Shown piece after piece: positions 36,208-52,260 of a stretch of DNA of 64,000 nt. Both the position numbers and the translations under genes were made by a program. The DNA lies in the NCBI RefSeq assembly GCF_001280565.1, contig NZ_LGRO01000001.1, forward strand, positions 2,852,001 to 2,916,000. Reading direction: 5' to 3'. Within the stretch, counting starts at the first letter, position 1. Every line of letters begins with the position of its first letter. The notes beneath the pieces were generated by a model. It did no database searches. It was not told where the DNA came from and saw nothing but the letters and a program-made list of their open reading frames with translations. This DNA comes from Sulfobacillus thermosulfidooxidans. Lineage in GTDB: Bacteria; Bacillota; Sulfobacillia; Sulfobacillales; Sulfobacillaceae.

Positions 36208-37224
36208 GTGCCCGATCCGATAGTCCATGTGATATGGATTAATGCAGGCTTGAGCTGTGACGGCGATTCCGTAGGATTAACCGCGGCAACCCAGCCCAGC
36301 GTGGAAGATTTAGCGCTGGGATATTTGCCGGGAGTTCCTAATGTTCGCTTTCACTGGCCCTTAGTCGATTACGATAATGGGGATGAACTCATGGCATGGT
36401 GGTGGAAAGCCGCGAATGGTGAGCTCGACCCTTTTGTGTTAGTGGTTGAAGGTTCGATTCCCAATGAGAAGATTCATGCCGAAGGATATTGGGCGGCGAT
36501 GGGGAATAATCCCGAAACCGGTCAACCTATGACGACCAATGAATGGATTGATAAGCTGGCACCCAAAGCATGGGCGGTTTTGGCAGCCGGCACGTGCGCG
36601 AGTTATGGCGGTATCCATGCCATGCAAGGCAATCCTACGGGCGCTATGGGAATTGCGGATTATTTGGGATGGAATTGGCGATCGAAGGCGGGCGTACCCA
36701 TTGTGTGTGTGCCGGGATGCCCCATTCAACCTGATAACCTCTCCGAAACGATTCTTTACCTCCTCTATCAAGCCGCGGGATCTGCTCCCATGATTCCTCT
36801 TGACGATCAATTACGACCGCAATGGCTTTTTGGCCGGACAGTGCATCAGGGGTGTGATCGCGCTGGCTATTATGAGCAAGCCGATTTTGCCGCCGAATAT
36901 GGCTCACCCAAATGTATTGTCAAACTCGGATGCTGGGGTCCGGTTGTGAACTGCAATGTGCCCAAGCGAGGATGGATGGCGGGTATTGGGGGCTGTCCTA
37001 ACGTCGGAGGCATTTGTATCGGGTGTACCATGCCCGGCTTCCCGGACAAGTTTATGCCCTTTATGGACGAACCCCCTGGAGGAAAGATGTCGTCATCTGT
37101 CATCTCTCTCTACGGGAAATTGTTCCGGAATTTGCGTTCTGTCACCAATGACACGTTGAATCATGAACCGTCTTGGCGGCATGCCCGGGCTGAACTGACC
37201 ACAGGATATCAAAAAGTATGGTAA
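36208..37224 (+). CDS. hhyS: [NiFe] hydrogenase small subunit, group 1h type
   Basis: 338 residues from GTG 36208 (AAGGGGGGA upstream). No Tat signal peptide. The proximal-cluster motif reads INAGLSCDGDS: where most small subunits have CxxC, this has Cys17-x-x-Asp20, the Asp-ligated 4Fe-4S arrangement described for the oxygen-insensitive actinobacterial-type hydrogenase of Ralstonia. Further Fe-S ligands: GTCASYGG, VCVPGCPIQPDN, HQGCDRAGYYE, KLGCWGPVVNC, GGCPNVGGICIGCTMPGFPD. Together these mark the group 1h (former group 5) uptake enzyme that can use very low H2. First gene of the operon. Confidence 0.92.
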   Translation: MPDPIVHVIWINAGLSCDGDSVGLTAATQPSVEDLALGYLPGVPNVRFHWPLVDYDNGDELMAWWWKAANGELDPFVLVVEGSIPNEKIHAEGYWAAMGNNPETGQPMTTNEWIDKLAPKAWAVLAAGTCASYGGIHAMQGNPTGAMGIADYLGWNWRSKAGVPIVCVPGCPIQPDNLSETILYLLYQAAGSAPMIPLDDQLRPQWLFGRTVHQGCDRAGYYEQADFAAEYGSPKCIVKLGCWGPVVNCNVPKRGWMAGIGGCPNVGGICIGCTMPGFPDKFMPFMDEPPGGKMSSSVISLYGKLFRNLRSVTNDTLNHEPSWRHARAELTTGYQKVW

Positions 37225-37243
37225 TTGAAGGGAGGACAATGAT

Positions 37244-39055
37244 TTGGCTACAACGGAAGACAAAGTGAGCAGTCAACAGACAGGCACCAATGCGAAACTT
37301 GTCGAAATGGCGTGGGATCCGATTACCCGCATTGTCGGAAGCTTAGGGATATATACCAAAATCGACTTTGAGAACCGTGAAGTGGTGGAATGTCATAGTA
37401 CGTCTTCGATTTTTCGAGGCTACAGTATTTTCATGAAAGGCAAAGATCCCCGGGATGCCCATTTTATCACCAGTCGTATTTGTGGCATTTGTGGGGACAA
37501 TCATGCCACTTGCGCTGTTTATGCGCAAAATATGGCGTTTGGGGTCAAACCGCCATCGCTGGCCGAGTGGATTATCAATCTTGGAGAAGCTGCGGAATAT
37601 ATGTTTGACCACAACATCTTCCAAGAAAACTTGGTGGGTGTCGATTTTTGTGAGCAAATGGTCCGGGAAACCAACCCGAGTGTTTGGGCAAAAGCCCAAA
37701 AAACATCGGCTCCGCACGCTGATATTCATGGATACAAGACCATTGCCGATATCATGACGGCGCTCAATCCTTTTACGGGGGAATTATACCGCGAGGCGCT
37801 TCAGGTAAGCCGATACACCCGGGAGATGTTTATCTTAATGGAAGGTCGGCATGTTCATCCCTCCACGTTATATCCCGGTGGTGTGGGAACTGTGCCGACC
37901 ATCCAGTTATTTACCGACTACATGACAAGGCTCATGAAATACATCGACTTCATGAAGAAAATGGTTCCTCTTCATGATGACCTTTTTGATTTCTTCTACG
38001 AGGCATTGCCCGGCTATGAGGCCGTCGGGCAACGCCGGATTTTGCTCGGCTGTTGGGGCTCCTTCCAAGATCCCAATGCCTGCGATTACGATTATAAGCA
38101 TATGACCGACTGGGGCCGCAAGATGTTTGTGACGCCGGGTATCGTCGTCGACGGCAAACTCCTGACCACGGATTTGGTCGAAATTAATCTCGGGATGCGC
38201 ATTTTGTTGGGATCGTCCTATTATGGCAGTTGGGAAAATGAAGAACGCTTTGTGACCCATGATCCCTTAGGCAATCCCGTTGATAAGAATCACCCGTGGA
38301 ATCAAACCACGATTCCGAAGCCGCAAAAACGCGACTTTAACAAGAACTACAGTTGGGTGATGTCGCCCAGGTGGTATGACAAATCCTCGGGCGATCATCT
38401 CGCATTAGATACCGGGGGCGGGGCCATTGCTCGTTTATGGGCCACCGCACTCGCGGGACTTGTGGATATGGGGACGGTGAAAGCTACGGGTCACTCCGTC
38501 CAAATTAATTTCCCCAAGACGGCATCGTTTGGCGAAATGCAACTGGAATGGAAAATCCCGAAGTGGAGTAACGCGATTGAACGAGACCGAGCCCGCACGT
38601 ACTTCCAAGCCTATGCGGCAGGGGCGGCCCTATACTTCTTAGATCAAGCGATAGCTGAAGTAAGAGCTGGCCATACCACGGTATGGGAACCTTTCAAAGT
38701 GCCAGAAGAGGCTATCGGCTGCGGATTCCATGAAGCTGTGCGGGGCGTGCTGTCGCATCATGTCGTCATTCGTGACGGGAAAATTGCGAACTATCACCCC
38801 TATCCTCCCACGCCCTGGAATGCCAATCCCCGGGACATTTACGGGACTCCGGGACCGTATGAAGATGCGGTGCAAGGCACACCCATTTTCGAAGAAAATG
38901 GACCGGATTCTTTCAAAGGCATAGATATTATGCGCGCTGTCCGGAGCTTTGATCCCTGTTTGCCTTGTGGCGTGCATATGTATGTGGGCAATGGCAAAAC
39001 CGTTGAGGTGAATCATTCTCCCACTTATGGTGTCGGCTGTGCCCCTGGAGAGTAA
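37244..39055 (+). CDS. hhyL: [NiFe] hydrogenase large subunit, group 1h type
   Basis: 603 residues from TTG 37244 (GGGAGG upstream). The two Ni-Fe site motifs are intact: L1 RICGICGDNHATC near residue 80 and L2 FDPCLPCGVHMYVG at the end. A C-terminal extension of about 20 residues follows L2 (ending SPTYGVGCAPGE); the endopeptidase encoded at 50571 presumably trims it. EMAWDPITRIVGSLGIYTKI and SSIFRGYSIFMKGKDPRDAH are typical of the group 1h branch. Oxidises H2 and passes electrons to the small subunit. Confidence 0.93.
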   Translation: MATTEDKVSSQQTGTNAKLVEMAWDPITRIVGSLGIYTKIDFENREVVECHSTSSIFRGYSIFMKGKDPRDAHFITSRICGICGDNHATCAVYAQNMAFGVKPPSLAEWIINLGEAAEYMFDHNIFQENLVGVDFCEQMVRETNPSVWAKAQKTSAPHADIHGYKTIADIMTALNPFTGELYREALQVSRYTREMFILMEGRHVHPSTLYPGGVGTVPTIQLFTDYMTRLMKYIDFMKKMVPLHDDLFDFFYEALPGYEAVGQRRILLGCWGSFQDPNACDYDYKHMTDWGRKMFVTPGIVVDGKLLTTDLVEINLGMRILLGSSYYGSWENEERFVTHDPLGNPVDKNHPWNQTTIPKPQKRDFNKNYSWVMSPRWYDKSSGDHLALDTGGGAIARLWATALAGLVDMGTVKATGHSVQINFPKTASFGEMQLEWKIPKWSNAIERDRARTYFQAYAAGAALYFLDQAIAEVRAGHTTVWEPFKVPEEAIGCGFHEAVRGVLSHHVVIRDGKIANYHPYPPTPWNANPRDIYGTPGPYEDAVQGTPIFEENGPDSFKGIDIMRAVRSFDPCLPCGVHMYVGNGKTVEVNHSPTYGVGCAPGE

Positions 39056-39140: not shown

Positions 39141-39254
39141 ATGATCCAAATGATGTTCACGCTCGCGTTTTTAGCGCTCGTGATATGGCTAGGGAAACTC
39201 ATTTTGCAGTCATTACCGGATATGCAACGTTATGTGCGAATGCGCAATATGTAG
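39141..39254 (+). CDS. 37-aa single-span membrane protein (DUF6893-like)
   Basis: ATG 39141 has an excellent AGGAGGTG site 6-8 bases upstream, yet the gene is only 37 codons and easily missed. The peptide has one hydrophobic helix (MFTLAFLALVIWLGKLIL) followed by LPDMQRYVRMRNM, which resembles the LPDIRRYxRxRxM ending I remember for the small DUF6893 proteins beside group 1h hydrogenases. It may anchor the signal-less soluble hydrogenase to the membrane or link it to the quinone pool; that role is inferred. Sits 85 bases after hhyL, 41 before hypF. Confidence 0.75.
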   Translation: MIQMMFTLAFLALVIWLGKLILQSLPDMQRYVRMRNM

Positions 39255-39295
39255 CTCATGAAAACGGTTAAAGACGGAGTGAGGGGAGCGAGCCG

Positions 39296-41608
39296 ATGGA
39301 AGCGTATCCTGACGATCTCTTTACAGAAAGGCGACGTCTACGTATTGCCGGATTTGTGCAAGGCGTGGGATTTCGACCCTTTGTCTACCGGGCAGCCCAA
39401 CACTTAGGACTTACCGGCTGGATTTACAATGATAGTCAAGGGGTGTGCATTGAGGTCCAAGGGCCTTCATGGGCCCTGCAGCGTTTCCACGAACACTTGC
39501 TTTCTAAGACTCCGCCTTTAGCCCGTATTGACCACATTGAGGAAGATCCTGTCGCCATTCAAGTGGGAGAGCAGGACTTCGTCATTCAGCAAAGTGTCCA
39601 GGGAAAAGATCCCTTAGCATTGGTAAGACCGGATGCCTGTGTCTGCCCCGAATGTCTTCAAGAGATGCATAATCCTAAAGACCGCCGTTATCGCTATCCC
39701 TTTATTAATTGTACGAATTGTGGGCCCCGTTACACGATTATTCAAGGTGTTCCTTATGACCGGGCCATGACGACGATGGCAGGTTTTGTGATGTGTCCCG
39801 AATGCCAAAGGGAGTATGACGATCCTTTGGACCGCCGTTTTCATGCTCAACCGAATGCGTGTCCCCGTTGTGGTCCGCAGGTGGTCTTTGAGAGGGAACA
39901 AGAAATTTCTGGCGATCCTTTTCGACTATGGGCTGAAGCCATTTTGTCAGGCCAAATCGTCGCTGTCAAAGGTTTAGGAGGCTATCATTTAGCCTGCAAC
40001 CCGTTTGATGAGCAGGCTGTAAAGCGCTTACGTCAGCGCAAGCGGCGTTACGGCAAGCCCTTTGCGGTAATGGCGAAAGATCTTGAGGTGGTTGAGCGTT
40101 TGTGCCACGTCAGCGCCAGCGAAAAAGCGTTATTAGCGTCGGTCGAACGGCCTATTGTGTTATTGCAGCGGTTGGACTTCGGGTTGCTAAGCCAAGATGT
40201 GGCCGGTGCTTATCGAACTTTAGGTGTCATGCTGCCTTATACCCCACTGCACGTCTTGTTACTAGAGGCGTTAGACGGTCTGTTGCCATTACCTGTGGTT
40301 GTGATGACCAGCGGCAATTTCAGTGACGAGCCCATTGTCACCGATAACGCGGAAGCCAAAGACAGGCTCAAAACCGTGGCTGATGCTTTTGTCCATCATA
40401 ACCGACCTATCTATATCCGCTGTGACGATTCCATTGTGAAGTTAGCCGCAGACAATCATCCTCAACTATTACGGCGTTCACGGGGATACGTGCCAGACAT
40501 TATTGAAAGTGACATCCAAGGTCCCCCTCTTCTGGCTGTCGGTGGCGAACTCAAGAATACCTTTGCGTTTTACCAACAGGGCAAAGTCTATTTGAGCCAT
40601 CATTTGGGTGATCTGGAAAATATGAAGGCTTATGAAGCCTTTGAGCAAGGCATTCAGCATTTTCAGCGTCTGTTTGATTTGAAGCCTAAATATGTTGTGC
40701 ATGACTTGCATCCGGGCTACTTGTCAACGACTTTTGCCCAACAAATGGGTCTACCGACCATTGCCGTCCAGCATCATCATGCCCACGTTGCTAGTGTCAT
40801 GATGGAACATCATGTAGATGGTCCCGTCATAGGACTAGCCTTCGATGGGACCGGATATGGTCCGGACAAAACCATTTGGGGTGGAGAAGTGCTATTAGCT
40901 ACTTTATCCGGATTTGAGCGTGTAGCATCTTTAAAACCAATGCCTTTGATTGGAGGCGACCGGGCGATTAAAGAACCGTGGCGCATAGCGTCAGCACTGT
41001 TAGCTCAAATCTTTACCCGGGACAATTATCCAGAAGACCTGGCCGTGATTCAGCAAATTGGCGCTCCATGGTGGCAGGTTGATGCCTTGGCGAGAAAAAC
41101 TCACTCTTCTTTTTCTGTCTTAACATCGAGTATGGGCCGGTTATTTGATGCCGCGGGTGTCCTTATGGGGTTAGGGCCTAGGGCCAGCTATGAAGGAGAA
41201 GTGGCGATTATGTGCGAGATGGCTGTGCAAGACGAAGACGTTTCTTCTTATCCCTATGCCATTTTATGTGAAAGTCCTGGCCATTGGCGCATGGATCCAA
41301 TACCCATGATTCAAGAACTCTTGATCGATATCACCCGCCGGGAATCTTTATCTTTCATGGCGACCCGCTTTCATCAGACCATCGCTGACATGGCGGCTGA
41401 TACGGCCGATCTCGTCCATCACTATTACGGAATCGATCAGGTAGTGCTAACTGGGGGTGTCTGGCAAAACCAAGTGTTGACACGCCTTACCTTAAACCAC
41501 TTACAGGAAAGAGGATTAAAAGTGTATCTCAACCACATCGTTCCCCCCAATGACGGTGGATTAGCATTAGGACAAATTGGCATTGGGTGCATGATGGCCC
41601 GTAATTAA
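39296..41608 (+). CDS. hypF: Carbamoyltransferase HypF
   Basis: 770 residues, full length. Domains in order: acylphosphatase-like (RLRIAGFVQGVGFRPFVYRA), two zinc-finger units (CVCPECL, CTNCGP; CPECQ, CPRCGP), YrdC-like ATP domain (KGLGGYHLACNPFDEQAV), and Kae1-like carbamoyltransferase domain with the metal motif HHHAHVASVMMEH. It makes carbamoyl-adenylate from carbamoyl phosphate and loads it on HypE for CN ligand synthesis. ATG 39296 follows GAGGGGAG. Confidence 0.95.
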   Translation: MEAYPDDLFTERRRLRIAGFVQGVGFRPFVYRAAQHLGLTGWIYNDSQGVCIEVQGPSWALQRFHEHLLSKTPPLARIDHIEEDPVAIQVGEQDFVIQQSVQGKDPLALVRPDACVCPECLQEMHNPKDRRYRYPFINCTNCGPRYTIIQGVPYDRAMTTMAGFVMCPECQREYDDPLDRRFHAQPNACPRCGPQVVFEREQEISGDPFRLWAEAILSGQIVAVKGLGGYHLACNPFDEQAVKRLRQRKRRYGKPFAVMAKDLEVVERLCHVSASEKALLASVERPIVLLQRLDFGLLSQDVAGAYRTLGVMLPYTPLHVLLLEALDGLLPLPVVVMTSGNFSDEPIVTDNAEAKDRLKTVADAFVHHNRPIYIRCDDSIVKLAADNHPQLLRRSRGYVPDIIESDIQGPPLLAVGGELKNTFAFYQQGKVYLSHHLGDLENMKAYEAFEQGIQHFQRLFDLKPKYVVHDLHPGYLSTTFAQQMGLPTIAVQHHHAHVASVMMEHHVDGPVIGLAFDGTGYGPDKTIWGGEVLLATLSGFERVASLKPMPLIGGDRAIKEPWRIASALLAQIFTRDNYPEDLAVIQQIGAPWWQVDALARKTHSSFSVLTSSMGRLFDAAGVLMGLGPRASYEGEVAIMCEMAVQDEDVSSYPYAILCESPGHWRMDPIPMIQELLIDITRRESLSFMATRFHQTIADMAADTADLVHHYYGIDQVVLTGGVWQNQVLTRLTLNHLQERGLKVYLNHIVPPNDGGLALGQIGIGCMMARN

Positions 41609-41655
41609 CAGCGCAAGACAGAAATACAGGCAAATGTAAAGAGGAGGAATGGGTG

Positions 41656-41928
41656 ATGTGTTTAGCAATTCCTGGGCGGGTTACGGAGATTGTTGACCGG
41701 GAACGAGACATTGCCAAAGTCGATGTGACCGGGATTAAACGCAATGTGAGTATTACGCTATTAAAGTCATTGGGGATTGAACCCGGAGACTGGGTCCTCG
41801 TTCACGTCGGATTTGCCATGAGCAAAATTGATGAGCAAGAAGCCCAAGAAACATTAGCGATGCTGCAAGAATTGGGAACGTCACTCGATGATGAATTTGA
41901 TTTGTGGGATACCTCGCAAATTGAATAA
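41656..41928 (+). CDS. hypC: Hydrogenase maturation chaperone HypC
   Basis: 90 residues. The start is ATG 41656 rather than the GTG three bases earlier because HypC needs Met-Cys at the N-terminus (MCLAIPGRVTEI); GAGGAGG lies 8 bases upstream. Cys2 shuttles the Fe(CN)2CO unit from HypD to the large subunit. Length and the IKRNVSITLL/GDWVLVHVGFAM pattern are standard for HypC. Confidence 0.95.
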   Translation: MCLAIPGRVTEIVDRERDIAKVDVTGIKRNVSITLLKSLGIEPGDWVLVHVGFAMSKIDEQEAQETLAMLQELGTSLDDEFDLWDTSQIE

Positions 41929-41959
41929 ACCCTCAAGGGTTCCGTGATGAGGTGAGACC

Positions 41960-42544
41960 ATGATGACCGACCAGGAATTAGACGCGATAGTGGATCGGTA
42001 CTTTAACGAGTCCGAGAGGATTGCTCAAGCCTTTTTTGACAAGGAATCGGAGCGCCTTGCCCATGCTTGTTATCAAATGGCCCGACGATTTCATCATCAG
42101 GGAAGGATTTGGACATTTGGTGACGGCTTTTGGACCACTGATGCTCAACATGTCGCGGTGGAATTTGTGCATCCGGCGATTGTGGGAAATAAGGCGTTGC
42201 CGGGCATTTCCCTGAGCAATAACAATGCCTTACTCACCAGTCCGGATTCGGATATGAAATACGCGTATGGGCTAAAACGCTTGGCAAAATCCCAGGATAT
42301 CGCGCTGGGTTTTTCCACAGATGGGCAAACTCGATCGATTTTGCAAGGACTTGCCCAAGCTAAAGCGATGGGGATGTTGACGTTGGGGTTATCGGGTGCA
42401 CCGGGATTTAAGGAGTCGTCGGCCGACTTTATTTTCACGGTTAATAGCCCTGATCCGTTATTAATTCAAGAGACCCATGAACTCGTATGCCACGTGTTTT
42501 ACGAACTGGTGCATGTGTTTTTGGATCAGGAGGTGCTGTTATGA
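41960..42544 (+). CDS. SIS-domain protein (GmhA-like), hydrogenase-linked
   Basis: 194 residues. A single sugar-isomerase fold related to phosphoheptose isomerase, but the phosphate loop is altered: WTFGDGFWTTDAQHVAVEF instead of the usual GNGGSxADAxH. The second half keeps LGFSTDGQTRSILQGLAQAKA and a typical GLSG loop. It ends with ATGA overlapping the next gene. SIS proteins occur in actinobacterial-type hydrogenase clusters, as I recall, without an agreed function; carrying the degenerate loop it may bind rather than isomerise. Confidence 0.8.
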   Translation: MMTDQELDAIVDRYFNESERIAQAFFDKESERLAHACYQMARRFHHQGRIWTFGDGFWTTDAQHVAVEFVHPAIVGNKALPGISLSNNNALLTSPDSDMKYAYGLKRLAKSQDIALGFSTDGQTRSILQGLAQAKAMGMLTLGLSGAPGFKESSADFIFTVNSPDPLLIQETHELVCHVFYELVHVFLDQEVLL

Positions 42545-42798
42545 ACTCTTCCTCACCTCTATTTGTGGCAGTTCCAGGACTGCCGATTTACGAGGCTCAT
42601 TGTGTGACCTGTTCTGATGAATTGCAGAAATTTCGCGTGGTTGCGATTGATACCGATCAATGGATAGCCCACGTGAGGGGAGACAACGAAGACATCTGGA
42701 TAGATATCACCTTTGTTCCCGATCTTCAAGTGGGCGATGACGTGTTATGCCATGGGGGTACTGCCCTGGCTAAAGTGACAGAAGGGAATGACAAGTGA
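42541..42798 (+). CDS. Second HypC/HupF-like chaperone
   Basis: 85 residues from ATG 42541, overlapping the SIS gene stop by 4 bases; the longer open frame starts inside that gene. The family pattern is shifted inward: AHCVTCSDELQKFRVVAID, then VGDDVLCHGGTALAKV, matching the HypC/HybG/HupF fold with CxxCSD in place of the N-terminal Met-Cys. It may be a chaperone specific to the group 1h large subunit or for another step, acting beside the canonical HypC at 41656. Confidence 0.8.
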   Translation: MNSSSPLFVAVPGLPIYEAHCVTCSDELQKFRVVAIDTDQWIAHVRGDNEDIWIDITFVPDLQVGDDVLCHGGTALAKVTEGNDK

Positions 42799-43481
42799 TG
42801 AGCCAGTCTCAATCCGGTTCGGAATTTGATCAGTTATTTTATCCAGGGTTGTTTGCCAGTCCCAAGACTTCCGTGAATGTCGCCGACGTTTTGCAGCAGG
42901 TCACGATGTCTACTCGGCAAAAATGCCAAGAGACAATCGCCTTACGCCGCGAAATTCATCAAAATGCCCATCATCAACTGGTTACGGCGGCTAAAGCTAT
43001 GGCCGAGCGTTTTGCTCAAGGTGCTATGTTGCTAGCCATGGGCAATGGCGGCAGTAGTACCGATTGTCAAGATCTGGTGGCGGATTTTATGGATCTTGAC
43101 AAATCATCCGGGCTGTCTTTGCCGGTATTGGCGTTGACCCATGATGTGGCTGCGATGACTGCGATCGCTAATGATGTGGGTTTTGAGAATGTGTTTGTCC
43201 GCCAGGTGATTGCTTTCGGGAAACCCGGGGATATCGCGATGGGATTTTCCACAAGTGGTAATTCAGAAAATGTCGTGTTGGGTCTGGCTCAAGCCAAGCG
43301 TCAAGGTCTCTTAACCATCGCCATTTCGGGGTATGATGGCGGGAAACTTGCCCAGAATGCGGCCATTGACTACTGCTTTGTTGCCCGCAATGAACACACA
43401 CCGCGTATCCAAGAAGGACAAGCGACCATTGCCCACATTCTTGTCCGACTCGTCAAAGCCCTCATGACATCAAGGTCCTAG
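42798..43481 (+). CDS. SIS-domain phosphoheptose isomerase-like protein
   Basis: 227 residues from ATG 42798, whose start overlaps the preceding TGA (TGATG). Unlike its neighbour at 41960 it has the intact GmhA loop AMGNGGSSTDCQDLVADFMD and GFSTSGNSENVVLGL. GmhA converts sedoheptulose-7-phosphate to heptose-7-phosphate for surface glycans, but position inside a hyp operon and an extra ~60-residue N-terminus argue for a hydrogenase-related role. Both SIS proteins could form a mixed oligomer. Confidence 0.82.
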   Translation: MSQSQSGSEFDQLFYPGLFASPKTSVNVADVLQQVTMSTRQKCQETIALRREIHQNAHHQLVTAAKAMAERFAQGAMLLAMGNGGSSTDCQDLVADFMDLDKSSGLSLPVLALTHDVAAMTAIANDVGFENVFVRQVIAFGKPGDIAMGFSTSGNSENVVLGLAQAKRQGLLTIAISGYDGGKLAQNAAIDYCFVARNEHTPRIQEGQATIAHILVRLVKALMTSRS

Positions 43482-43496
43482 GAAGGGAGTGGTTTG

Positions 43497-44621
43497 ATGC
43501 AATTTATTGATGAATACCGAGACGAAGAATTATCCAAGAAAACTGCGAATGAAATTGCGCGATTGGCCAAAGGGCGCGACATCAAAATCATGGAAGTCTG
43601 CGGGGGGCATACGCATACGATTTTTAAGCATGGCATTGAAGATTTATTGCCGCCAAACGTCGATTTAGTGCATGGGCCAGGATGCCCAGTTTGTGTTCTG
43701 CCTATGGGCCGAGTCGATGATGCCATGGCCATTGCCAGCCAGCCCGATGTCATATTTACCACCTTTGGCGACATGATGCGGGTGCCGGGTTCTCATGGCA
43801 GCCTTTTGGATATCAAGGCTGATGGTGCCGATGTCCGCTTTGTGTACTCGCCCTTAGATGCGCTTAAGATTGCCAAACAACATCCGGACAAAGAGGTTGT
43901 TTTCTTTGCCGTGGGTATGGAAACCACCGCGCCGTCCACTGCGGCCACATTGTTACGCGCCAAAGCTGAAGGCATTAAGAACTTTTCGGTGTTTTGCAAC
44001 CACGTTTTGATTATCCCGGCGTTGAAATCACTACTGGATTCTCCCGATCTTCGGCTTGATGGATTTTTAGGCCCGGGACATGTCAGCATGGTGGTGGGTA
44101 TGCGTCCTTATGAATTTGTGGCACGTGATTATCACAAGCCCGTAGTCATTGCCGGATTTGAACCCCTCGATATTATCCAGTCAATTTATATGGTGGTGAA
44201 ACAGATTGCCGAAGACCGGGCCGAGGTAGAAAACCAGTATACACGCGTGGTGCGTCCGGAAGGCAATGTCATGGCCCAAAAAGCGATGGCCGAAACCATG
44301 GAACTGCGGCCGTTTTTTGAATGGCGAGGGCTTGGGTTCATTAATTACAGTGCATTTCGCTTGCGGGATGCATTTCGGGACTGGGACGCGGAAATCAAGT
44401 TTCATGTTCCTGGTGTCCGCGTTGCGGATCCCAAGGCGTGCCAATGCGGTGAGGTCCTCAAAGGAGTCATCAAACCGTGGCAGTGTAAAGTGTTCGGCAC
44501 GGCGTGTACGCCTGAGACACCCATTGGCACATGCATGGTCTCTCCCGAAGGGGCTTGTGCCGCGTATTACAACTATGGCCGATTTTCCATGGCCCAAGAA
44601 CGCAAAAATTTATCGTGGTGA
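43497..44621 (+). CDS. hypD: Hydrogenase maturation protein HypD
   Basis: 374 residues from ATG 43497 (GGAAGGGAG upstream). Hallmarks: MEVCGGHTHTIFKHG, VHGPGCPVCVLPMG, FCNHVLIIPAL, and C-terminal Fe-S ligands CQCGEVLKG...KVFGTACTPETPIGTCM (shown in pieces). HypD, with HypC, is the scaffold where the iron receives CN and CO before insertion in the large subunit. Normal length. Confidence 0.95.
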   Translation: MQFIDEYRDEELSKKTANEIARLAKGRDIKIMEVCGGHTHTIFKHGIEDLLPPNVDLVHGPGCPVCVLPMGRVDDAMAIASQPDVIFTTFGDMMRVPGSHGSLLDIKADGADVRFVYSPLDALKIAKQHPDKEVVFFAVGMETTAPSTAATLLRAKAEGIKNFSVFCNHVLIIPALKSLLDSPDLRLDGFLGPGHVSMVVGMRPYEFVARDYHKPVVIAGFEPLDIIQSIYMVVKQIAEDRAEVENQYTRVVRPEGNVMAQKAMAETMELRPFFEWRGLGFINYSAFRLRDAFRDWDAEIKFHVPGVRVADPKACQCGEVLKGVIKPWQCKVFGTACTPETPIGTCMVSPEGACAAYYNYGRFSMAQERKNLSW

Positions 44622-44679
44622 TGCCTTGACCGGCTTGTGATAAGGCGACTAGAACCTCAGTACGGAGGAGGAAACAAAC

Positions 44680-45774
44680 ATGGCCGAATCGAACGCGTCC
44701 GATGTTCTCGCGAAAATTGAAAAAGCCCAAGAAGCGCGACGCAAAAGAGCGGTGTTACGGGAAACTCACGTGACGATGAGTCACGGCAGCGGGGGGAAAG
44801 CCACCCATAATCTGATTGATGCCGTCTTTGCTCAAGCCTTAAGCAACGCCTATTTAGACCGGATGGAAGATAGCGCGGTGATGCCGTGGGATACGTCTTC
44901 TTCGAAGATCGCGTTGACGACCGATACCTATGTAGTGAGCCCGATTAAATTCCCCGGGGGAGACATTGGTTCGTTAGCGGTTCATGGGACTATCAATGAC
45001 TTAGCCATGGCTGGAGCGATGCCTTTGGCATTATCAGCCGGGTTCATATTAGAAGAAGGATTTCCTATTGAAGAATTACGCGACATTGTAAAATCCATGG
45101 CCGAGGCGTCTTTACGGGCCCATGTTCCGATTGTTACCGGAGATACCAAAGTCGTTCCACGCGGTAAAGGGGATGGTATTTACATTAATACCGCTGGAGT
45201 TGGGCGGTTATTGCCTGAGGCTTCTTTGGGCTATGACCGCATTCGGGTAGGCGATAAGGTGATTGTGAGTGGCGATTTGGGAGATCACGGCATTGCGGTC
45301 ATGTTAGCGCGCGAGAGTCTCGATATTGATGCCGACATCACAAGTGATAGCGCACCTCTGCACCACATCGTCTATGACCTCATCACCCATTTAGGATCTT
45401 CTATTCACTGCCTTAAGGATCCGACGAGAGGCGGGTTGGCGACCACATTAAATGAATTGACCCAATCCAGCCGCTTGGCCATAGGACTGCAAGAACGGAC
45501 GATCCCCGTCAAGGACGTGGTCAAAGGCACTTGTGAATTATTAGGTCTCGATCCTTTAACCATCGCTAATGAAGGCAAACTGATTGCGATTGTCGACGCA
45601 CACGTGGCAGATGAGGCATTAGCCATTATCCGTTCTCACGAATCAGGACACCACGCCCAGATTATTGGAGAGGTTTTACCAGAACCCGAGGGCATGGTGT
45701 TTATGCATACCGATATTGGCGGGATGCGTGTCTTAGACATGCTCGTCGGTGATCCCTTACCCCGGATTTGCTAG
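44680..45774 (+). CDS. hypE: Hydrogenase maturation protein HypE
   Basis: 364 residues, GGAGGAGG upstream. PurM-like ATPase with the N-terminal THVTMSHGSGGKATHNLI and VTGDTKVVPRGKGDGIYIN; the C-terminus is the invariant PRIC, whose Cys carries the thiocarbamate dehydrated to thiocyanate. Donor of CN to the HypCD complex, partner of HypF. Stop is 9 bases before hypA. Confidence 0.96.
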   Translation: MAESNASDVLAKIEKAQEARRKRAVLRETHVTMSHGSGGKATHNLIDAVFAQALSNAYLDRMEDSAVMPWDTSSSKIALTTDTYVVSPIKFPGGDIGSLAVHGTINDLAMAGAMPLALSAGFILEEGFPIEELRDIVKSMAEASLRAHVPIVTGDTKVVPRGKGDGIYINTAGVGRLLPEASLGYDRIRVGDKVIVSGDLGDHGIAVMLARESLDIDADITSDSAPLHHIVYDLITHLGSSIHCLKDPTRGGLATTLNELTQSSRLAIGLQERTIPVKDVVKGTCELLGLDPLTIANEGKLIAIVDAHVADEALAIIRSHESGHHAQIIGEVLPEPEGMVFMHTDIGGMRVLDMLVGDPLPRIC

Positions 45775-45783
45775 GAGGACACT

Positions 45784-46176
45784 ATGCACGAATTGTCATT
45801 GGCTATTCCCATTGGCGAATATGTCTTGCAGGAATCACAAGGGCGAAATGTCGAGGAAATTGTTCTGAAGGTGGGGAGACTGAGCGGAATTGTGCCGGAG
45901 GCCTTGGATTTGGCGTTGCAAGTGGTGCTGCAAGCCAGCTGTGCGGAAAAGGCCTGTATTACCTACGAATGGCAAGACGGTGAAGGACAATGCCGTTTTT
46001 GTCATACCCGTTTTTCTATGAAGGACGTCTTAGATGTTTGTCCAGACTGCGGACAAATGGGCGCGAAGATTTTAGCGGGTACCCAAATTCGCTTGATAGG
46101 TCTTCGCTTTGCTCCCCGTCTTGATACATCGCCAGAAGAAACACACACCACCCAAATGACAATCAACAATTCCTGA
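45784..46176 (+). CDS. hypA: Nickel metallochaperone HypA
   Basis: 130 residues, AGGAGG upstream. The N-terminal Met-His-Glu nickel site (MHELSLA) and zinc site CRFCHTRF...CPDCGQ are intact. Longer than usual by a ~15-residue polar tail (TSPEETHTTQMTINNS). Delivers Ni to the large subunit with HypB. Confidence 0.93.
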   Translation: MHELSLAIPIGEYVLQESQGRNVEEIVLKVGRLSGIVPEALDLALQVVLQASCAEKACITYEWQDGEGQCRFCHTRFSMKDVLDVCPDCGQMGAKILAGTQIRLIGLRFAPRLDTSPEETHTTQMTINNS

Positions 46177-46232
46177 TCGCAATAAACCAGGATAAGCAGG
46201 AGGAGAAAGAAAAAACAAGGAGGGTATTGACG

Positions 46233-47045
46233 ATGTGTGCAACATGTGGTTGTGGCAATGATGCGGAACATGTGGGCATTGAAGGTCAGGAACTGACTGC
46301 CCAGCATGAGCATGCTTTTTGGACAGAGGGAAGCTCTCGTCCGACAAATCAGGAAGGGGGAGGGCACGACCATAAAACTCTGGAAATTGATGTGTTATCG
46401 GTTAATAACCAAAATGCCCAGAAAAACCGTCAGGCTTTTCACGCGCATGGTATCACGGCGATTCAAGTGCTCAGTTCGCCGGGATCGGGCAAAACCACTT
46501 TATTAGAGCACACAGTTGGACGTTTGCAGAAAGATCAGATCACCATGGGGGTCTTAGTCGGCGATCAACGAACTGACCAAGATGCCGAACGCCTGCGGCA
46601 AGCGGGATGTGAAGCCAAGCAAATCACCACCGGCAGTGTTTGCCATCTGGATGCCCATATGGTCGCGCATGCGGCTCAGCATCTGAGCTCCTGGCCTGAC
46701 ATTTTGTTTATTGAAAATGTTGGCAACCTCATTTGTCCGGCGCTGTTTGACTTGGGGGAAGATGCTCGCGTTGTGTTATTGAGTGTGACCGAGGGCGAGG
46801 ATAAACCTGTTAAATATGCCGATATGTTTGTCACTGCGGATTTGGTATTGGTCACAAAAGTCGATCTGCTTCCCTATTTAGATGTGTCCTGGGAGCGTTT
46901 TTATCAGGTGATTCAAGAAGTGAACCCGGGAGCGAAGATTCTTCCGATTTCGGTGAAAACGGGTGAGGGAATGGGTGAATGGATAGCGTGGCTTTTATGG
47001 CAAAAAGAGCGAGCGCGCTTGACCCACCCGCTATCAACCCATTAA
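46233..47045 (+). CDS. hypB: GTPase HypB
   Basis: 270 residues from ATG 46233 (AAGGAGGG, 8-base spacing; a TTG two codons earlier is less likely). N-terminal high-affinity metal motif MCATCGCGN, no long His-rich stretch. G-domain: P-loop [49 protein letters not shown]. Binds nickel and couples GTP hydrolysis to its transfer during hydrogenase maturation. Confidence 0.95.
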   Translation: MCATCGCGNDAEHVGIEGQELTAQHEHAFWTEGSSRPTNQEGGGHDHKTLEIDVLSVNNQNAQKNRQAFHAHGITAIQVLSSPGSGKTTLLEHTVGRLQKDQITMGVLVGDQRTDQDAERLRQAGCEAKQITTGSVCHLDAHMVAHAAQHLSSWPDILFIENVGNLICPALFDLGEDARVVLLSVTEGEDKPVKYADMFVTADLVLVTKVDLLPYLDVSWERFYQVIQEVNPGAKILPISVKTGEGMGEWIAWLLWQKERARLTHPLSTH

Positions 47046-47099
47046 TGGGACGTAAATCCCGAGAATCAAATGGCTTACAGATTAGAGGGGGGAGACATA

Positions 47100-48002
47100 A
47101 TGGACGCCATGACGACCCAGTTTGAAGCACTCGTTGAAGCGGTTGACCAACGACTCGAGTCGATAGAAAAGACCTCGGTACCTGGATTTCGTCAGCAGGT
47201 TGGTGAATTGGTGAATGATTTACTAGAAATGTACCGCATGGGATTCGAGCAAGTGATGTATTACGCCCGCTCGTATCCTGACCTGCCACAAAAATTCGCC
47301 GACGATCCCGTGTTAGGACCCTTGTTGATGATTCATAATATGCATCCACTGTCTTTTGAAGAGCGGGTTCACAAAGCTTTAGATAACGTGCGACCTTATT
47401 TAAAGACGCATGACGGCAATGTGCGATTACTTTCGGTGGAACAAGGCATTGTGAAACTCGCCTTAGAAGGGCATTGCCACGGGTGCCCGTCATCGAGGGT
47501 CACGATTAAGACAGCTATTGAACAAGAATTGATGCGCTGGGCTCCCGATATGTTAGACCTCATAGTCGAAGGGGAGGACAATGTCCTAAGCATTGATCCG
47601 GATGATGCCCGGCGGGTGGTGATTCCATTAAGCGCAGTGCAAGGAGTAACAACCGAGAATAAACGGCCCAAAGGATGGTTTCAATTAGACAACATTACCA
47701 GCTTGTTGCCCGGGCAAACGCATAAGAGCCAATTAGAGGACCATCCTCTCATTATTGCCCGTCTTGGCGACGAGTTCTTTGCCTATCACGATTTCTGTCC
47801 CCAGTGTCACCGTCTGAATGTGTTGGTTCTCATCACGAATGATGATCTATCCGCCAGTATTTTAGAATGCCAGTCGTGTCAAACGCAGTATGAGCCGAAA
47901 AAGGCAGGGCGCGCCGTGTCCCAAGCGTCGCTGCATCTAGAGCCATTGCCGCTTTTGCTTGAAGGACATACCGCGCGCATTGCCATACCTGTAGCCGAAT
48001 AG
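47100..48002 (+). CDS. NifU-like Fe-S protein with C-terminal double-CxxC domain
   Basis: 300 residues from ATG 47100 (AGGGGGGAG, 6-base spacing). An N-terminal helical part (~1-90), then a NifU C-terminal domain (VRPYLKTHDGNVRLLSVE, HCHGCPSSRVTI with CxxC), then a region around 220-280 with CPQCH and CQSC spaced as in a Rieske-like or zinc-ribbon fold (FAYHDFCPQCHRLNV, LECQSCQTQYE). Because ligands are CxxC pairs rather than CxH/CxxH, a classic 2Fe-2S Rieske centre is unlikely. Probably an Fe-S assembly or electron-transfer accessory for the hydrogenase. Confidence 0.82.
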   Translation: MDAMTTQFEALVEAVDQRLESIEKTSVPGFRQQVGELVNDLLEMYRMGFEQVMYYARSYPDLPQKFADDPVLGPLLMIHNMHPLSFEERVHKALDNVRPYLKTHDGNVRLLSVEQGIVKLALEGHCHGCPSSRVTIKTAIEQELMRWAPDMLDLIVEGEDNVLSIDPDDARRVVIPLSAVQGVTTENKRPKGWFQLDNITSLLPGQTHKSQLEDHPLIIARLGDEFFAYHDFCPQCHRLNVLVLITNDDLSASILECQSCQTQYEPKKAGRAVSQASLHLEPLPLLLEGHTARIAIPVAE

Positions 48003-48014: not shown

Positions 48015-48635
48015 ATGGGACGATCGATTTTGCGTGTGAAAAATTGGGTGCGCGAAGAGCCGGTTAAGGGAGAGGATGAGGTTTGTGAAGTGTGCAATCG
48101 TCTGATTCCTGCTCACGACCACCGCCATTTATTGCGTTTACAAACGGCTCAAGTGGTTTGTGCGTGCCCACACTGTGCTCTTCTCTTTGATGCACCGGGG
48201 CAAAATCAGTATCAAACCATCCCCACTCGGATCAAGAAACTGGATAGGGCGATATTGGGTCAGGATTTTTGGGATGTTATGAAGGTTCCCGTGCATCTCG
48301 TGGGTATCATTAAACGGCGCGGGGGCCAAGCGGAGATTTTCTATCCAAGTCCGGCAGGCGCCGTCAGTGGCGGCCCCATTTCTCAAGGGTTTCTAACACC
48401 TTCCTTGCAACAGGCTTTGGGCTCTGTGAGCGATGAGGTTGAAGTCCTGCTGATCGCGGATCTTGCCGGAATGAGTGAAGGATTCCTTATCCCATTGGAC
48501 CGGTTTTATGAACTCATTGGGCTGCTCCGGCTAAGTTGGCAAGGCCTTTCCGGAGGAAATGAGGTGTCCCGCCGTATTCACCAATTCTTTGACCAATTGG
48601 CCCAACAGGCAGGAACCCGAGGAGGTCTAGTATGA
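48015..48635 (+). CDS. DUF5947-like protein, hydrogenase accessory
   Basis: 206 residues, GGGAGG upstream. N-terminal CEVCNRLIPAHDHRHLL with a second pair CACPHCALLF suggests a metal or Fe-S site of four Cys, followed by an alpha/beta domain (VPVHLVGIIKRRGGQAEIFY). It matches what I recall as DUF5947, found in group 1h hydrogenase clusters next to DUF6084. Function unassigned. Overlaps the next gene by 4 bases. Confidence 0.7.
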   Translation: MGRSILRVKNWVREEPVKGEDEVCEVCNRLIPAHDHRHLLRLQTAQVVCACPHCALLFDAPGQNQYQTIPTRIKKLDRAILGQDFWDVMKVPVHLVGIIKRRGGQAEIFYPSPAGAVSGGPISQGFLTPSLQQALGSVSDEVEVLLIADLAGMSEGFLIPLDRFYELIGLLRLSWQGLSGGNEVSRRIHQFFDQLAQQAGTRGGLV

Positions 48636-49282
48636 CGGAATCGGTTCAATTTGCCATTGATGGCGTATCATTGGTCCGCAATGCGGCGATGCCGACGCTA
48701 CAATTTCTGATTAATATTCGAACCACACCACCTGTTAATCATGTGCACGCGATGATCTTGCGCGTGCAAATACAAATCGCCCCGAGGGGCAGATCCTATT
48801 CCGAATTTGTGCAAAATCGCTTGCTGGATGTTTTTGGCACGCCCGAGAGATGGCATGAAACCATGCATAATTTTTTGTGGGCGCAATCTTCTTTGTCTGT
48901 TCCGCGCTTTGAACATCAAACCACCATCGAGTTGCCCGTTGTGTGTACCTATGATTTTGATGTGTTAGCCGTGAAATACTTACAGTCTTTGGATACCGGG
49001 ATGATTCCCATGGAATTTTTGTTTAGCGGGACGTTATTTTATCACGATGCCCAGCTGGGGGTGCAAGTGCAGCCCATTTCCTGGAATTGTGAAGCCGCTT
49101 TCCAATTACCGGTGACCATTTGGCGCGAACTCATGGCTGCTTATTATCCTCATCAGGCATGGATTCGGATTGATCAAGATCTTTTTGATCGGCTTAATCT
49201 ATTCCGCAGCCAACATGAAGTGTCCACATGGGATGATGCCTTAAGGTTACTGCTTGACCGAGAAACGGAAAGGAGATCTTAA
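48632..49282 (+). CDS. DUF6084-like protein, hydrogenase accessory
   Basis: 216 residues, ATGA overlap with the gene before. Recognisable by LRVQIQIAPRGRSYSEF, FGTPERWHETMHNFLWAQSS, ELPVVCTYDFDVLAVKYLQS, FLFSGTLFYHD and the final STWDDALRLLLDRE. This pattern agrees with DUF6084 of actinobacterial hydrogenase operons. Mostly beta-sheet by appearance; no catalytic motif. Role in assembly or electron transfer is inferred from conserved context only. Confidence 0.72.
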   Translation: MTESVQFAIDGVSLVRNAAMPTLQFLINIRTTPPVNHVHAMILRVQIQIAPRGRSYSEFVQNRLLDVFGTPERWHETMHNFLWAQSSLSVPRFEHQTTIELPVVCTYDFDVLAVKYLQSLDTGMIPMEFLFSGTLFYHDAQLGVQVQPISWNCEAAFQLPVTIWRELMAAYYPHQAWIRIDQDLFDRLNLFRSQHEVSTWDDALRLLLDRETERRS

Positions 49283-49286
49283 GTTC

Positions 49287-50267
49287 ATGAACTTATGGCA
49301 AAACACCGAAAAAATTGCTGATGCCGTGCTTTATGAAGGATATGCCTTATATCCCTATAGGCCCAGTGCCATCAAAAATCAACAGCGATGGACATTTGGA
49401 CGCATTGTTCCCGAGATTTATCACCAACGAACTCAGTCGACAGATCCCTGGTTTCGCCGGGCCACAACCTTATTACAAGCCTCCTCTTTAGCCATCACCG
49501 TGCGTTTACGCTTTTTGCAAATTGCTGAGCCGCCGCTTTCGCCAAGTTTCCCGTCCGTGCCCTGGCAACAAGCGTTGCCACGAGATTTTACCTGGACTAT
49601 TACCTCATTGCCGTGGGCCAAAACGATGGAGATCCCCTCGTCATTGGAGGAGGCGGGCGATGTGAAAAATATCGTTTTTCGCGTCGAAATTGATGGAGAT
49701 CTGTTCCGTAGCGACCCAGAGCCCGTATGGATTTTGACCACAACAATTCGCAATGTGACACCAGATATTTCGGCATTTGATGAAGCTTCAGCCCTACGGC
49801 ACTCCCTGATTGCGACGCACTGGCTTTTATCGACCGATACGGGCAAATGGATTTCATTGCTCGATCCCCCGAGCTTTCTGGAAGACACAGTGGGGGCATT
49901 AACGCAAGAGGGGGTGTGGCCCGTGTTGGCCGGTGATCAGCAAGATGGAAAAATTTGCTTGGTCTCGCCAATTATTTTGTACGATTATCCCACGATAGCA
50001 GAAAACAGTCCCGGAGATTTCTTTGATGGTGCGGAAATTGATGAAATGCTGGCACTGCGGATCATGACTTTAACCGACGAAGAAAAAAAGGAAGCAATGC
50101 GTGCCGATCCGAAAGTTCAGGCGTTATTGGAGCGTACCCAAAATCTCTCCCGTGATGATCTTTACCAATTACATGGTATGGCCTACCGCGTATCACCAAA
50201 CTCGTCCACCCCGTCTTGTGAGATAGGCGGGAAGATGAGGGATAAGGAGAATAGCCATGATGAGTGA
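49287..50267 (+). CDS. Uncharacterised hydrogenase-cluster protein
   Basis: 326 residues from ATG 49287 (AGGAGA upstream). N-terminus ADAVLYEGYALYPYRPSAIK and C-terminal half LVSPIILYDYPTIAENSPGD, FFDGAEIDEMLALRI are strongly conserved-looking blocks that I associate with hypothetical proteins of group 1h hydrogenase loci. No known domain or membrane segment is visible. The end overlaps the next gene by 11 bases. Confidence 0.75.
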   Translation: MNLWQNTEKIADAVLYEGYALYPYRPSAIKNQQRWTFGRIVPEIYHQRTQSTDPWFRRATTLLQASSLAITVRLRFLQIAEPPLSPSFPSVPWQQALPRDFTWTITSLPWAKTMEIPSSLEEAGDVKNIVFRVEIDGDLFRSDPEPVWILTTTIRNVTPDISAFDEASALRHSLIATHWLLSTDTGKWISLLDPPSFLEDTVGALTQEGVWPVLAGDQQDGKICLVSPIILYDYPTIAENSPGDFFDGAEIDEMLALRIMTLTDEEKKEAMRADPKVQALLERTQNLSRDDLYQLHGMAYRVSPNSSTPSCEIGGKMRDKENSHDE

Positions 50268-50574
50268 AAGAGATGAAGCGTCAAATCCCTTTGATTTTTG
50301 GCAAGATGCCAAAGAGGCTCCTATCAAGGCTTTCTTAGACGGTCGAGCACTTCATCCCGGAGCGCACGTTCTGCTCCATCCCAAAAAGCATCAGGATATT
50401 TTTGATGCCGTGCTGGCGGGCAAGCTGGCGACGGTGGAGTCTATTCAAGAGGACTGGGAAGGGCGTATTTATGTCGTTGTCACCGTCGACGAAGATCCTG
50501 GCCGTGATTTGGGTCAAGAACAATTGGTGGGGCACCGTTTCTTCTTTGATTTGGATGAGGTGTCGTGGCCATGA
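50257..50574 (+). CDS. Uncharacterised 105-aa hydrogenase-cluster protein
   Basis: 105 residues, ATGATG start behind AAGGAGA and overlapping the preceding gene. The core GAHVLLHPKKHQDIFDAVLA, GKLATVESIQEDWEGRIYVV, VDEDPGRDLGQ and HRFFFDLDEV is compact and beta-rich, like small proteins encoded just before the hydrogenase protease in related clusters. Function unknown. Overlaps the protease gene by 4 bases. Confidence 0.75.
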   Translation: MMSERDEASNPFDFWQDAKEAPIKAFLDGRALHPGAHVLLHPKKHQDIFDAVLAGKLATVESIQEDWEGRIYVVVTVDEDPGRDLGQEQLVGHRFFFDLDEVSWP

Positions 50575-51071
50575 CCCCTTCTATGGAACCGGCCATTTTG
50601 GTTGCCGGGATTGGGAATATTTTTTTAGGCGATGACGGATTTGGAGTCGAAGTCATCAGACGTTTGATTGGGCGACCCTCTCTCATGCCGATGTTGGTAT
50701 TTCAGGATTTTGGTATTCGCAGTGTCGATCTCGTCTATGCCTTGCATAAACCTTGGAAAGCCGTGATTTTGGTGGATGCGTATGCTCATGGAGAGAAACC
50801 GGGACATTTACAAGTTATTCATATCACCGAGGAGGATATTCCCACGTCAGCTCCGGTGATGGATGGTCATAGTCTTAATCCCTTAATCGTCCTGGTCATG
50901 GCAAAACAGCAAGTTCCTGATCTTCCTCCCGTTTATCTCGTGGGTTGTCAACCCCTGACATTTGGCCCTGAAGAAGGGTTGATGGAGCTTAGTGCTCCGG
51001 TTGAGGCGGCAATAGAGGGGGCGTGCCATCTCATTACCACCTTAGGACATCAATTGGCACAAGAAGAATAA
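50571..51071 (+). CDS. Hydrogenase maturation endopeptidase
   Basis: 166 residues from ATG 50571 (ATGA overlap with previous stop). Family motif VAGIGNIFLGDDGFGVEVI with the nickel-sensing acidic residue, VDAYAHG, and the later MDGHSLNPLIVL with a conserved His. It cleaves the C-terminal extension of the large subunit after Ni insertion, closing the active site. Of the HycI/HupD/HoxW type. Confidence 0.9.
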   Translation: MTPSMEPAILVAGIGNIFLGDDGFGVEVIRRLIGRPSLMPMLVFQDFGIRSVDLVYALHKPWKAVILVDAYAHGEKPGHLQVIHITEEDIPTSAPVMDGHSLNPLIVLVMAKQQVPDLPPVYLVGCQPLTFGPEEGLMELSAPVEAAIEGACHLITTLGHQLAQEE

Positions 51072-51141
51072 GACCTGTTAGGAGAAGATGCAGCCAGGTC
51101 ATTTCGGTAATTTTTAATCATTCGAATAGGAGGAATAGAAG

Positions 51142-52260
51142 ATGAAAGAATCCGCATCGACTTGGCAGGATGTAGCCACTGTGGAAAAGGCTGAGTTAGT
51201 GGATATGGCCCAAAATATTTTTGAAAGTTTGGTCCATGCCATCGATGATTTAGGAGGACACCAGCTCGCGCAAAATGTTAAGGAATTTGCCGGGGTCCTC
51301 GAGCAACAAATGACCCAGGGGAATTTCCCCTTAGCAGGGACCACGACGTTGATTGGGGAAATGTGGCAAAGTTTGTCGCCGCGTTTGGGAGATTGGGCGA
51401 AGGGAATATTGGGTTCTCAAGGATTTCAGGATATTTTAAATCTCATTGCTTCCGGCCAATTATCCTCCGATCTGTTGGCTCAAATTGCTAAAATGTCTGA
51501 CAACAAGCAAGTTGCCGCTTTCCTTCGTAATTTATCCATGCAGGTGAGCCCATGGCAAGATAAGATGGTCGATCAAATTGTGCAATGGGCGCAAAGTGAA
51601 CATGTGATGAATGCCGTCCTGCTTTTAGCCCGGGCCGAGTCTTTGATGCAGCTGGTATTGAGCCAAGAAGTCATGGCTTTGGCGGAACAAGTCAAACAGG
51701 CCACCCCCGCACTTTTACGACTGACCGAATTGTTATCCCAAAAAGAATTTGCGGAAGTGGTGGAATTTAGCCAACGGGCCATGAAAAACCCTAAACTTCT
51801 GACCCTGCTTGAAACTTTGGAAAATCATATCGATACCGCCAATCAATTACTGAATTATCTCAGCCGGTTTGAAGAACGGGGAGGTTTGCAAGTTATCGAA
51901 CGGATTATGGATGCGTTTTCGGGTGATGACGTCAATGTGGAGACGTTAGCGAAATTGCCAGCTATTACGAATAAGGGCATTGAGTTTGCGGATTGGGCTT
52001 TGAACAGCGGATTACCGGAACTGACCCAAAATATGTTACTCGCTATCGACGTCAGTTTAGCCGAAGCCAAAAAAGACACCACCAAATATGGTGCGATGCG
52101 TCTAGTCGGGGCCTTAAAAGATCCGGCCATTCAAGACGGCATTAAAGTGGGAATGGCGTTTTTACGCCATTTACCCAATATTTTAACGCTGCCGCCAAAA
52201 TCACAACCAAAAGCGGATACTCATACGTCAGAACATGAAGTTGCCGCGACGGAAATTTAA
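51142..52260 (+). CDS. DUF1641-domain helical protein
   Basis: 372 residues, AGGAGG upstream. Almost wholly helical with repeated leucine-rich segments; the C-terminal TTKYGAMRLVGALKDPAIQD then GIKVGMAFLRHL is the DUF1641 signature, a domain often found beside formate dehydrogenases and hydrogenases. Probably a structural or membrane-interaction partner. Last gene of the hydrogenase operon; no terminator was seen before the next permease. Confidence 0.8.
   Translation: MKESASTWQDVATVEKAELVDMAQNIFESLVHAIDDLGGHQLAQNVKEFAGVLEQQMTQGNFPLAGTTTLIGEMWQSLSPRLGDWAKGILGSQGFQDILNLIASGQLSSDLLAQIAKMSDNKQVAAFLRNLSMQVSPWQDKMVDQIVQWAQSEHVMNAVLLLARAESLMQLVLSQEVMALAEQVKQATPALLRLTELLSQKEFAEVVEFSQRAMKNPKLLTLLETLENHIDTANQLLNYLSRFEERGGLQVIERIMDAFSGDDVNVETLAKLPAITNKGIEFADWALNSGLPELTQNMLLAIDVSLAEAKKDTTKYGAMRLVGALKDPAIQDGIKVGMAFLRHLPNILTLPPKSQPKADTHTSEHEVAATEI

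Follow-up and report, generated by a model that had tools for sequence, protein, structure and literature searches.

Much of the soil uptake of atmospheric H2 is credited to group 1h [NiFe]-hydrogenases, which published accounts describe as membrane-associated and with no anchor identified (PMC13332983, PMC7174314), and both their attachment to the membrane and their route to the quinone pool were called unresolved in 2019, 2020 and 2026 (PMC6883350, PMC7174314, PMC13332983). One example is Hyd-1h of Methylacidiphilum, reported to be membrane-associated without an anchor and to lose its high affinity off the membrane (PMC7174314). Among other classes, the high-affinity hydrogenase Huc of Mycobacterium smegmatis (group 2a) is linked to the membrane through HucM, a small subunit without catalytic function that forms a coiled-coil tube of about 188 residues (PMC10017518), and clusters of group 1l (HylTM1-5) and group 1m encode short single-helix transmembrane proteins beside a high-affinity hydrogenase (PMC9561532). 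Here we consider a group 1h (hhy) cluster of Sulfobacillus thermosulfidooxidans, located at 36208-52260 of a window of 64,000 nucleotides (the whole stretch of DNA that was analyzed; contig NZ_LGRO01000001.1, positions 2,852,001 to 2,916,000), and within it a peptide of the DUF6893 family, a candidate membrane anchor. With about 38 residues and one hydrophobic helix, members of this family differ in size and architecture from HucM, and also in size from the short proteins of group 1m, of 82-92 residues (PMC9561532), to which they are likened by description, not by sequence.

The hydrogenase itself is not new to Sulfobacillus. A "group 5" hydrogenase cluster was described in S. thermosulfidooxidans by Justice et al. 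(2014; PMC4378227), and a paper of 2022 lists this species with RuBisCO IE, a group 1h hydrogenase and CODH (PMC9561532), and thus the initial annotation overstated the novelty of its occurrence in this genus. The cluster of Justice et al. is very probably the same one, from the same or a sibling species; it was reported to have 16 subunits, no signal peptide and an unclear electron acceptor, and the part of that paper devoted to it makes no mention of the micropeptide, of the split of the genes here termed unkA and unkB, or of a cross-phylum core set (PMC4378227). Another close counterpart is the group 1h enzyme of Cupriavidus necator H16 (HofKG, PDB 5aa5), whose HhyL and HhyS are, respectively, 82% and 72% identical to those of the window, with the CxxD motif and the accessory block alike, and with a DUF6893 peptide that is present but not annotated in its gene table. 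The two loci differ in gene order, with the Hyp genes of the window lying between hhyL and hhyE, and in that C. necator has a single SIS gene and its unkA and unkB are fused, whereas the window possesses two SIS genes and separate unkA and unkB.

By sequence, the cluster at 36208-52260 encodes a [NiFe]-hydrogenase of group 1h (the "actinobacterial" type), an assignment resting on the identity of HhyL to the C. necator enzyme and on the CxxD motif of HhyS. The HhyS N-terminus (VPDPIVHVIWINAGLSCDGDS) carries CxxD at residues 17-20, matching PDB 5aa5_A, with C17 and D20 each kept in 94% of 85 aligned rows, some of them incomplete; no twin-arginine (Tat) signal was seen when this N-terminus was inspected by eye, in agreement with the signal-less small subunit described initially. 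HhyL possesses the motifs RICGICGDNH and DPCLPCGVH and shares 72-82% identity with complete 1h enzymes from actinobacteria and acidobacteria, versus 25-28% with five other plasmid hydrogenases, and PDB hydrogenases other than 5aa5 score far lower against it. Likewise, HhyS matches the Huc subunit 7uur_D at E 6.7e-32, compared with 9.1e-176 for 5aa5_A. The group 1h label proposed in the initial annotation therefore stands, the large subunit falling inside this group on the identity comparison.

The micropeptide is encoded between hhyL and hypF by an open reading frame (ORF) of 37 codons, preceded by a strong ribosome-binding site (AAGGAGGTG), and it is predicted to form one transmembrane helix, followed by a tail, PDMQRYVRMRNM, that extends to the stop. 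This ORF is under purifying selection, with a ratio of nonsynonymous to synonymous changes (pN/pS) of 0.17 over 6 independent pairs. In the sister species (genome G315) it carries 8 base differences and encodes an identical peptide, while the preceding spacer differs, with insertions and deletions, and the ribosome-binding site is kept. No paper on DUF6893 was found in the open-licence literature, and one may exist in print elsewhere.

For comparison we assembled 84 other hhy loci, the best 80 of 547 confirmed matches in bacterial and archaeal genomes, with close relatives favored, plus four annotated plasmid records. A hidden Markov model (HMM) of DUF6893 matched 72 of the 75 loci in which the protease gene and at least 400 bases past it are present, and one more peptide (locus L076) was recognized by eye. 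All 74 peptides, those of the 73 loci and of the window, have Met as the last residue at the stop, with Arg at position -8 in 73 and Tyr at position -7 in 73, and their median length is 38 residues. A hydrophobic stretch, with a mean hydropathy of 1.6 or more over the best 17 residues, is present in 71 of the 74; of the other three, two lose part of the helix through the choice of start. Compared with the head, the tail is more positively charged in 62 peptides, equally charged in 6 and less positive in 6, a pattern that on balance predicts a cytoplasmic C-terminus. The HMM was built from the same loci, and 5 of the 73 matching loci are weak (E 3e-3 to 3.3e-2); the independent Pfam model, PF21833, agrees, with 20 of 24 hhy-bearing genomes above its cut-off. 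A single joint stop-to-stop frame with another hydrogenase protein was encountered (L060, with the protease), and it was not accepted as a natural fusion.

The distribution of DUF6893 follows that of HhyL. Among 197 Actinomycetes genomes, 38 encode HhyL, 33 match PF21833 and 30 have both, with matches in only 3 of the 159 genomes without HhyL (Fisher p 9e-25). In 28 of the 30 genomes with both, the two genes lie on one contig, 3.3-5.9 kb apart and on the same strand. Of the three HhyL-less genomes with a match, two (G359 and G378) have partial matches, and G434 carries a decayed hhy locus. At this locus (L116, 8057-16967) hhyS is in two fragments and hhyL to unkAB are missing, with DUF6893, the protease and the Hyp genes retained. 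Similar observations can be made for an acidobacterial class, where of 121 genomes 7 encode a 1h HhyL, 7 encode DUF6893 and 6 encode both (p 1.3e-8); the one match among the 114 genomes without HhyL is partial and under the cut-off, and no DUF6893 was found in G660, a genome from this draw whose hydrogenase, 34% identical, belongs to another group. In the phylum of the window, sampled evenly at 299 genomes, DUF6893 occurs in a single genome, the window's own, although 69 match HhyL at E <= 1e-20; a full-length 1h match is likewise present only in the window's own genome, the next best being 44% identity over 161 residues.

We propose that DUF6893 could be the membrane-anchoring subunit of group 1h hydrogenases, for which the name HhyM would be appropriate, docking HhySL at the menaquinone pool and enabling or setting the high-affinity use of atmospheric H2; we judge the chances of this proposal to be about even. 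In the cytoplasmic, signal-less enzyme, HhyL would split H2 and HhyS would pass the electrons through three iron-sulfur (Fe-S) clusters, the proximal one presumably ligated by three Cys and one Asp, as in the C. necator structure 5aa5. The NiFe(CN)2CO center would be assembled by HypA-F and HhyL trimmed by the protease, and the rest of the class-specific set consists of HhyE, DUF5947, DUF6084 and the protein whose two domains are encoded by unkA and unkB. The single DUF6893 helix would reside in the inner membrane with its C-terminus inside, and the conserved basic tail at the chain end would fasten the otherwise soluble HhySL, alone or together with HhyE, to the membrane, a docking that would let HhySL hand electrons to menaquinone. 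With no metal ligands to speak of in DUF6893, an anchor appears to be its most economical role.

Several observations weigh against this proposal. DUF6893 is not known, from biochemistry or from structures, to be in contact with the hydrogenase. In the comparison set, no DUF6893 was found in the stretches examined of L052 and L089, and at three further loci (L035, L074 and L125) the copy is located several kb from hhyS, past the Hyp genes or upstream. The uniform C-terminal Met is partly due to selection by the way the model was constructed. In addition, 8 of the 38 HhyL-bearing Actinomycetes have no PF21833 match. Among these eight, G391 has gene fragments only, and G424 and G440 have weak copies; in G409, G441 and G515 a hydrophobic peptide is found at the same place with an altered and extended tail, while RYIRIEKM is retained at the stop in G440, which is related to them; and in the stretches fetched from G453 and G505 no DUF6893 was found. 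Five of these genomes (G409, G440, G441, G505 and G515; loci L117, L119, L120, L122 and L123) represent a diverged actinobacterial hhy lineage, in which unkA/unkB precede hhyS or hhyL at some loci, DUF6084 is unmatched in the stretches fetched, and three loci have the altered DUF6893-like peptides. L089, a planctomycete bin, has hhyS in three pieces and hhyE, DUF5947, DUF6084 and DUF6893 unmatched, owing to decay or assembly error.

The usual position of the DUF6893 gene, adjoining the protease or Hyp genes, could also mean that, at the membrane, the peptide aids assembly, recruits the protease or has a regulatory role without belonging to the finished enzyme, an explanation that we hold to be possible if rather unlikely. 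The decayed locus of G434, where DUF6893 persists beside the protease and Hyp genes after the loss of hhyL, would fit such a role, but the decay of one locus is uninformative on function. Moreover, the gene stands directly behind hhyL in the window and ahead of hhyS in three Verrucomicrobiota loci (L045, L054 and L056), and the invariant chain end and the single helix resemble a structural tether.

More doubtful is an arrangement in which HhyE serves as both electron acceptor and membrane contact, with DUF6893 dispensable. In M. smegmatis, HhyE is required for H2 uptake, as judged from a knockout, it migrates together with HhyL and HhyS in native gels, and it has been proposed as the electron acceptor, or alternatively to have a role in maturation (PMC6883350). 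The HhyE of the window has all three CxxC pairs and may carry an Fe-S cluster, but this would not hold throughout the class: the CxxC of the NifU loop is present in 42 and absent in 41 of the 83 informative sequences, no Cys pair exists in either of the two regions checked in 42 of 84 (one, L050, incomplete), and both C-terminal pairs are found in only 26 of 84, the window included. With the NifU-loop CxxC missing from so many sequences, HhyE can hardly be a universal Fe-S relay, and no hydrophobic helix has been reported for it. The third alternative, that the DUF6893 ORF is untranslated or its conservation incidental, has next to nothing to recommend it, as the missing annotation in the four annotated plasmid records, whose gene tables are incomplete, is set against a curated Pfam family found across phyla, the pN/pS value and the kept ribosome-binding site.

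With half of the HhyE proteins unable to hold the NifU-loop Fe-S cluster proposed for them, attention shifts to DUF5947. Seven of its residues, C24, C27, H36, H38, C49, C51 and C54, forming CxxC, HxH and CxCxxC motifs, are invariant in 79 of 79 sequences. DUF5947 thus probably binds a metal or an Fe-S cluster in the 1h system and, with all seven Cys/His invariant, is a better candidate than HhyE for a universal protein of that type. Its predicted fold (AlphaFold2, mean predicted local distance difference test score (pLDDT) 87) had no structural match at E <= 0.001 and none with Z >= 5.

The gene content of the cluster, read from the translations and from Pfam profile searches with gathering cut-offs, is as follows, all on the + strand and in this order:

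36208..37224, +, hhyS, small subunit (Pfam NiFe_hyd_SSU_C and Oxidored_q6; 5aa5_A, E 9.1e-176)
37244..39055, +, hhyL, large subunit (5aa5_C, 1140.6 bits, E = 0; 82.4% identity to C. necator H16 pHG1)
39141..39254, +, DUF6893 micropeptide, 37 aa, candidate membrane anchor (PF21833, E 2.2e-13, 50.4 bits versus a cut-off of 24.6)
39296..41608, +, hypF (Pfam)
41653..41928, +, hypC (Pfam)
41960..42544, +, SIS protein 1, in the SIS-hypC2-SIS trio (Pfam SIS_2)
42487..42798, +, hypC2, second HypC-like protein (Pfam HupF_HypC, 31.5 bits versus a cut-off of 28.5)
42795..43481, +, SIS protein 2 (Pfam SIS_2)
43494..44621, +, hypD (Pfam)
44680..45774, +, hypE (Pfam AIRS and AIRS_C)
45784..46176, +, hypA (Pfam)
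46227..47045, +, hypB (Pfam cobW/HypB/UreG)
47070..48002, +, hhyE, NifU-like domain with CxxC and C-terminal domain with two more CxxC (Pfam NifU, E 4.4e-20)
48015..48635, +, DUF5947 (Pfam; Cys/His pattern in the alignment)
48632..49282, +, DUF6084 (Pfam, E 5.1e-81)
49254..50267, +, unkA, N-terminal domain of a two-domain protein, a separate gene here (comparison with fused homologues)
50257..50574, +, unkB, C-terminal SH3-barrel-like domain of that two-domain protein (comparison with fused homologues; structural search)
50565..51071, +, large-subunit maturation protease (Pfam HycI)
51142..52260, +, DUF1641-like gene (17.8 bits, under the cut-off of 21)

The closely spaced run of genes was thus correctly delimited in the initial annotation, and the six Hyp proteins, two SIS proteins, second HypC, NifU-like protein, DUF5947 and DUF6084 named there all have Pfam matches. 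Its total of nineteen genes is right if the 37-aa ORF is counted in; the itemized list added up to 18 and did not name that ORF. The label DUF1641 fell short of the cut-off, and the "two uncharacterised" genes proved to be halves of one protein. The figure of eight or more accessory proteins lacking an agreed function is therefore too high, as the split protein was counted twice, knockout data exist for HhyE (PMC6883350), and the DUF1641-like gene is missing from the 84 other loci.

In these loci accessory genes were sought with iterated HMMs, and many of the misses are due to contigs ending early. We recovered hhyS in 84, hhyE in 83, DUF5947, DUF6084 and unkA in 78 each, and the protease in 77. 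The common block consists of hhyS, hhyL, hhyE, DUF5947, DUF6084, the two-domain unkA/unkB protein, the protease and the DUF6893 peptide, in the near-fixed order hhyS-hhyL-hhyE-DUF5947-DUF6084-unkAB-protease-DUF6893; many actinobacteria have the last two genes the other way round. In the window, which possesses the class-specific block hhyE-DUF5947-DUF6084-unkAB-protease, the Hyp genes split the block in two and DUF6893 directly follows hhyL. The accessory genes, the DUF1641-like gene excepted, thus recur in other 1h loci, and the core set can be defined by comparison, as anticipated, though this comparison is independent of the locus in the window.

The genes unkA and unkB, for which the Pfam search of the window proteins returned no family, are joined in one reading frame in 49 loci and separate in 29 others and in the window, some of the 29 being metagenome bins, where errors may occur; by this comparison the two are domains of one orthologous protein. 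A sequencing frameshift behind the split in the window was ruled out, the sister species G315 being split likewise, as are the 29 other loci. A model of the fused protein (AlphaFold2, pLDDT 82) includes a linker predicted to be disordered, at 341-372, which coincides with the position of the split. Its C-terminal domain resembles SH3 barrels (PetP, 2n5u, Z 7.8, root mean square deviation (rmsd) 3.4, 76 aligned residues), and the best match of its N-terminal domain is DrmA (7s9v, Z 11.3, rmsd 4.4, 191 aligned residues); these modeled fold matches are too weak for a function to be assigned.

The HMM search detected no homologue of the DUF1641-like gene in the 84 other hhy loci, and it was rejected as a core 1h accessory. 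In the sister species G315 a gene 92% identical is found in the same place; the gene may be a passenger or an add-on specific to the lineage, possibly with a lineage-specific role. Another element of variable presence is the SIS-hypC2-SIS trio (41960-43481), with a divergent second HypC, found in 11 rows including the window: five from Chloroflexota (mostly Ktedonobacteria), three actinomycete, one from Acidimicrobiia, and L068 or similar.

The genome carrying the window is of 3.83 Mb in three contigs. It encodes a second [NiFe] large subunit of another group (L001, G000:C1:2108353-2109873; PF00374, 634 bits), and a sulfur oxygenase reductase gene (PF07682, E 9.6e-145) is located upstream of the cluster on the opposite strand, at 34565-35485; together with what has been published on gene content in Sulfobacillus, this gene points to S. 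thermosulfidooxidans or a sibling species. At the family level, HhyL was detected in 2 of 34 genomes, both from the genus of the window, of which 8 genomes were searched. This patchy presence suits gain by transfer, and loss could also explain it. In a quick HhyL tree restricted to 1h sequences (94 rows), the window and the sister species G315 form a lone branch. The best matches of hhyS are in Acidobacteriota and those of hhyL in Burkholderiaceae; the genes hypF, hypC, SIS1, hypC2, SIS2, hypD and hypE (39296-45774), unlike hhyS and hhyL, have theirs in Ktedonobacteria and related Chloroflexota loci, and the maturation module may have a history different from that of the enzyme. No lineage could be singled out as the donor of such a transfer to Sulfobacillus.

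In conclusion, while a hydrogenase of this kind has already been reported, and comparison across loci also defines the class-specific 1h gene set, it is the DUF6893 hypothesis that merits testing at the bench. This conserved peptide, about 38 residues long, present in nearly every hhy locus and overlooked for its shortness, offers a concrete and cheap test of the question of membrane attachment. If the proposal is true, DUF6893 would do, as a detached peptide, what the C-terminal anchor helix does for the group 1d small subunit and HucM for group 2a.

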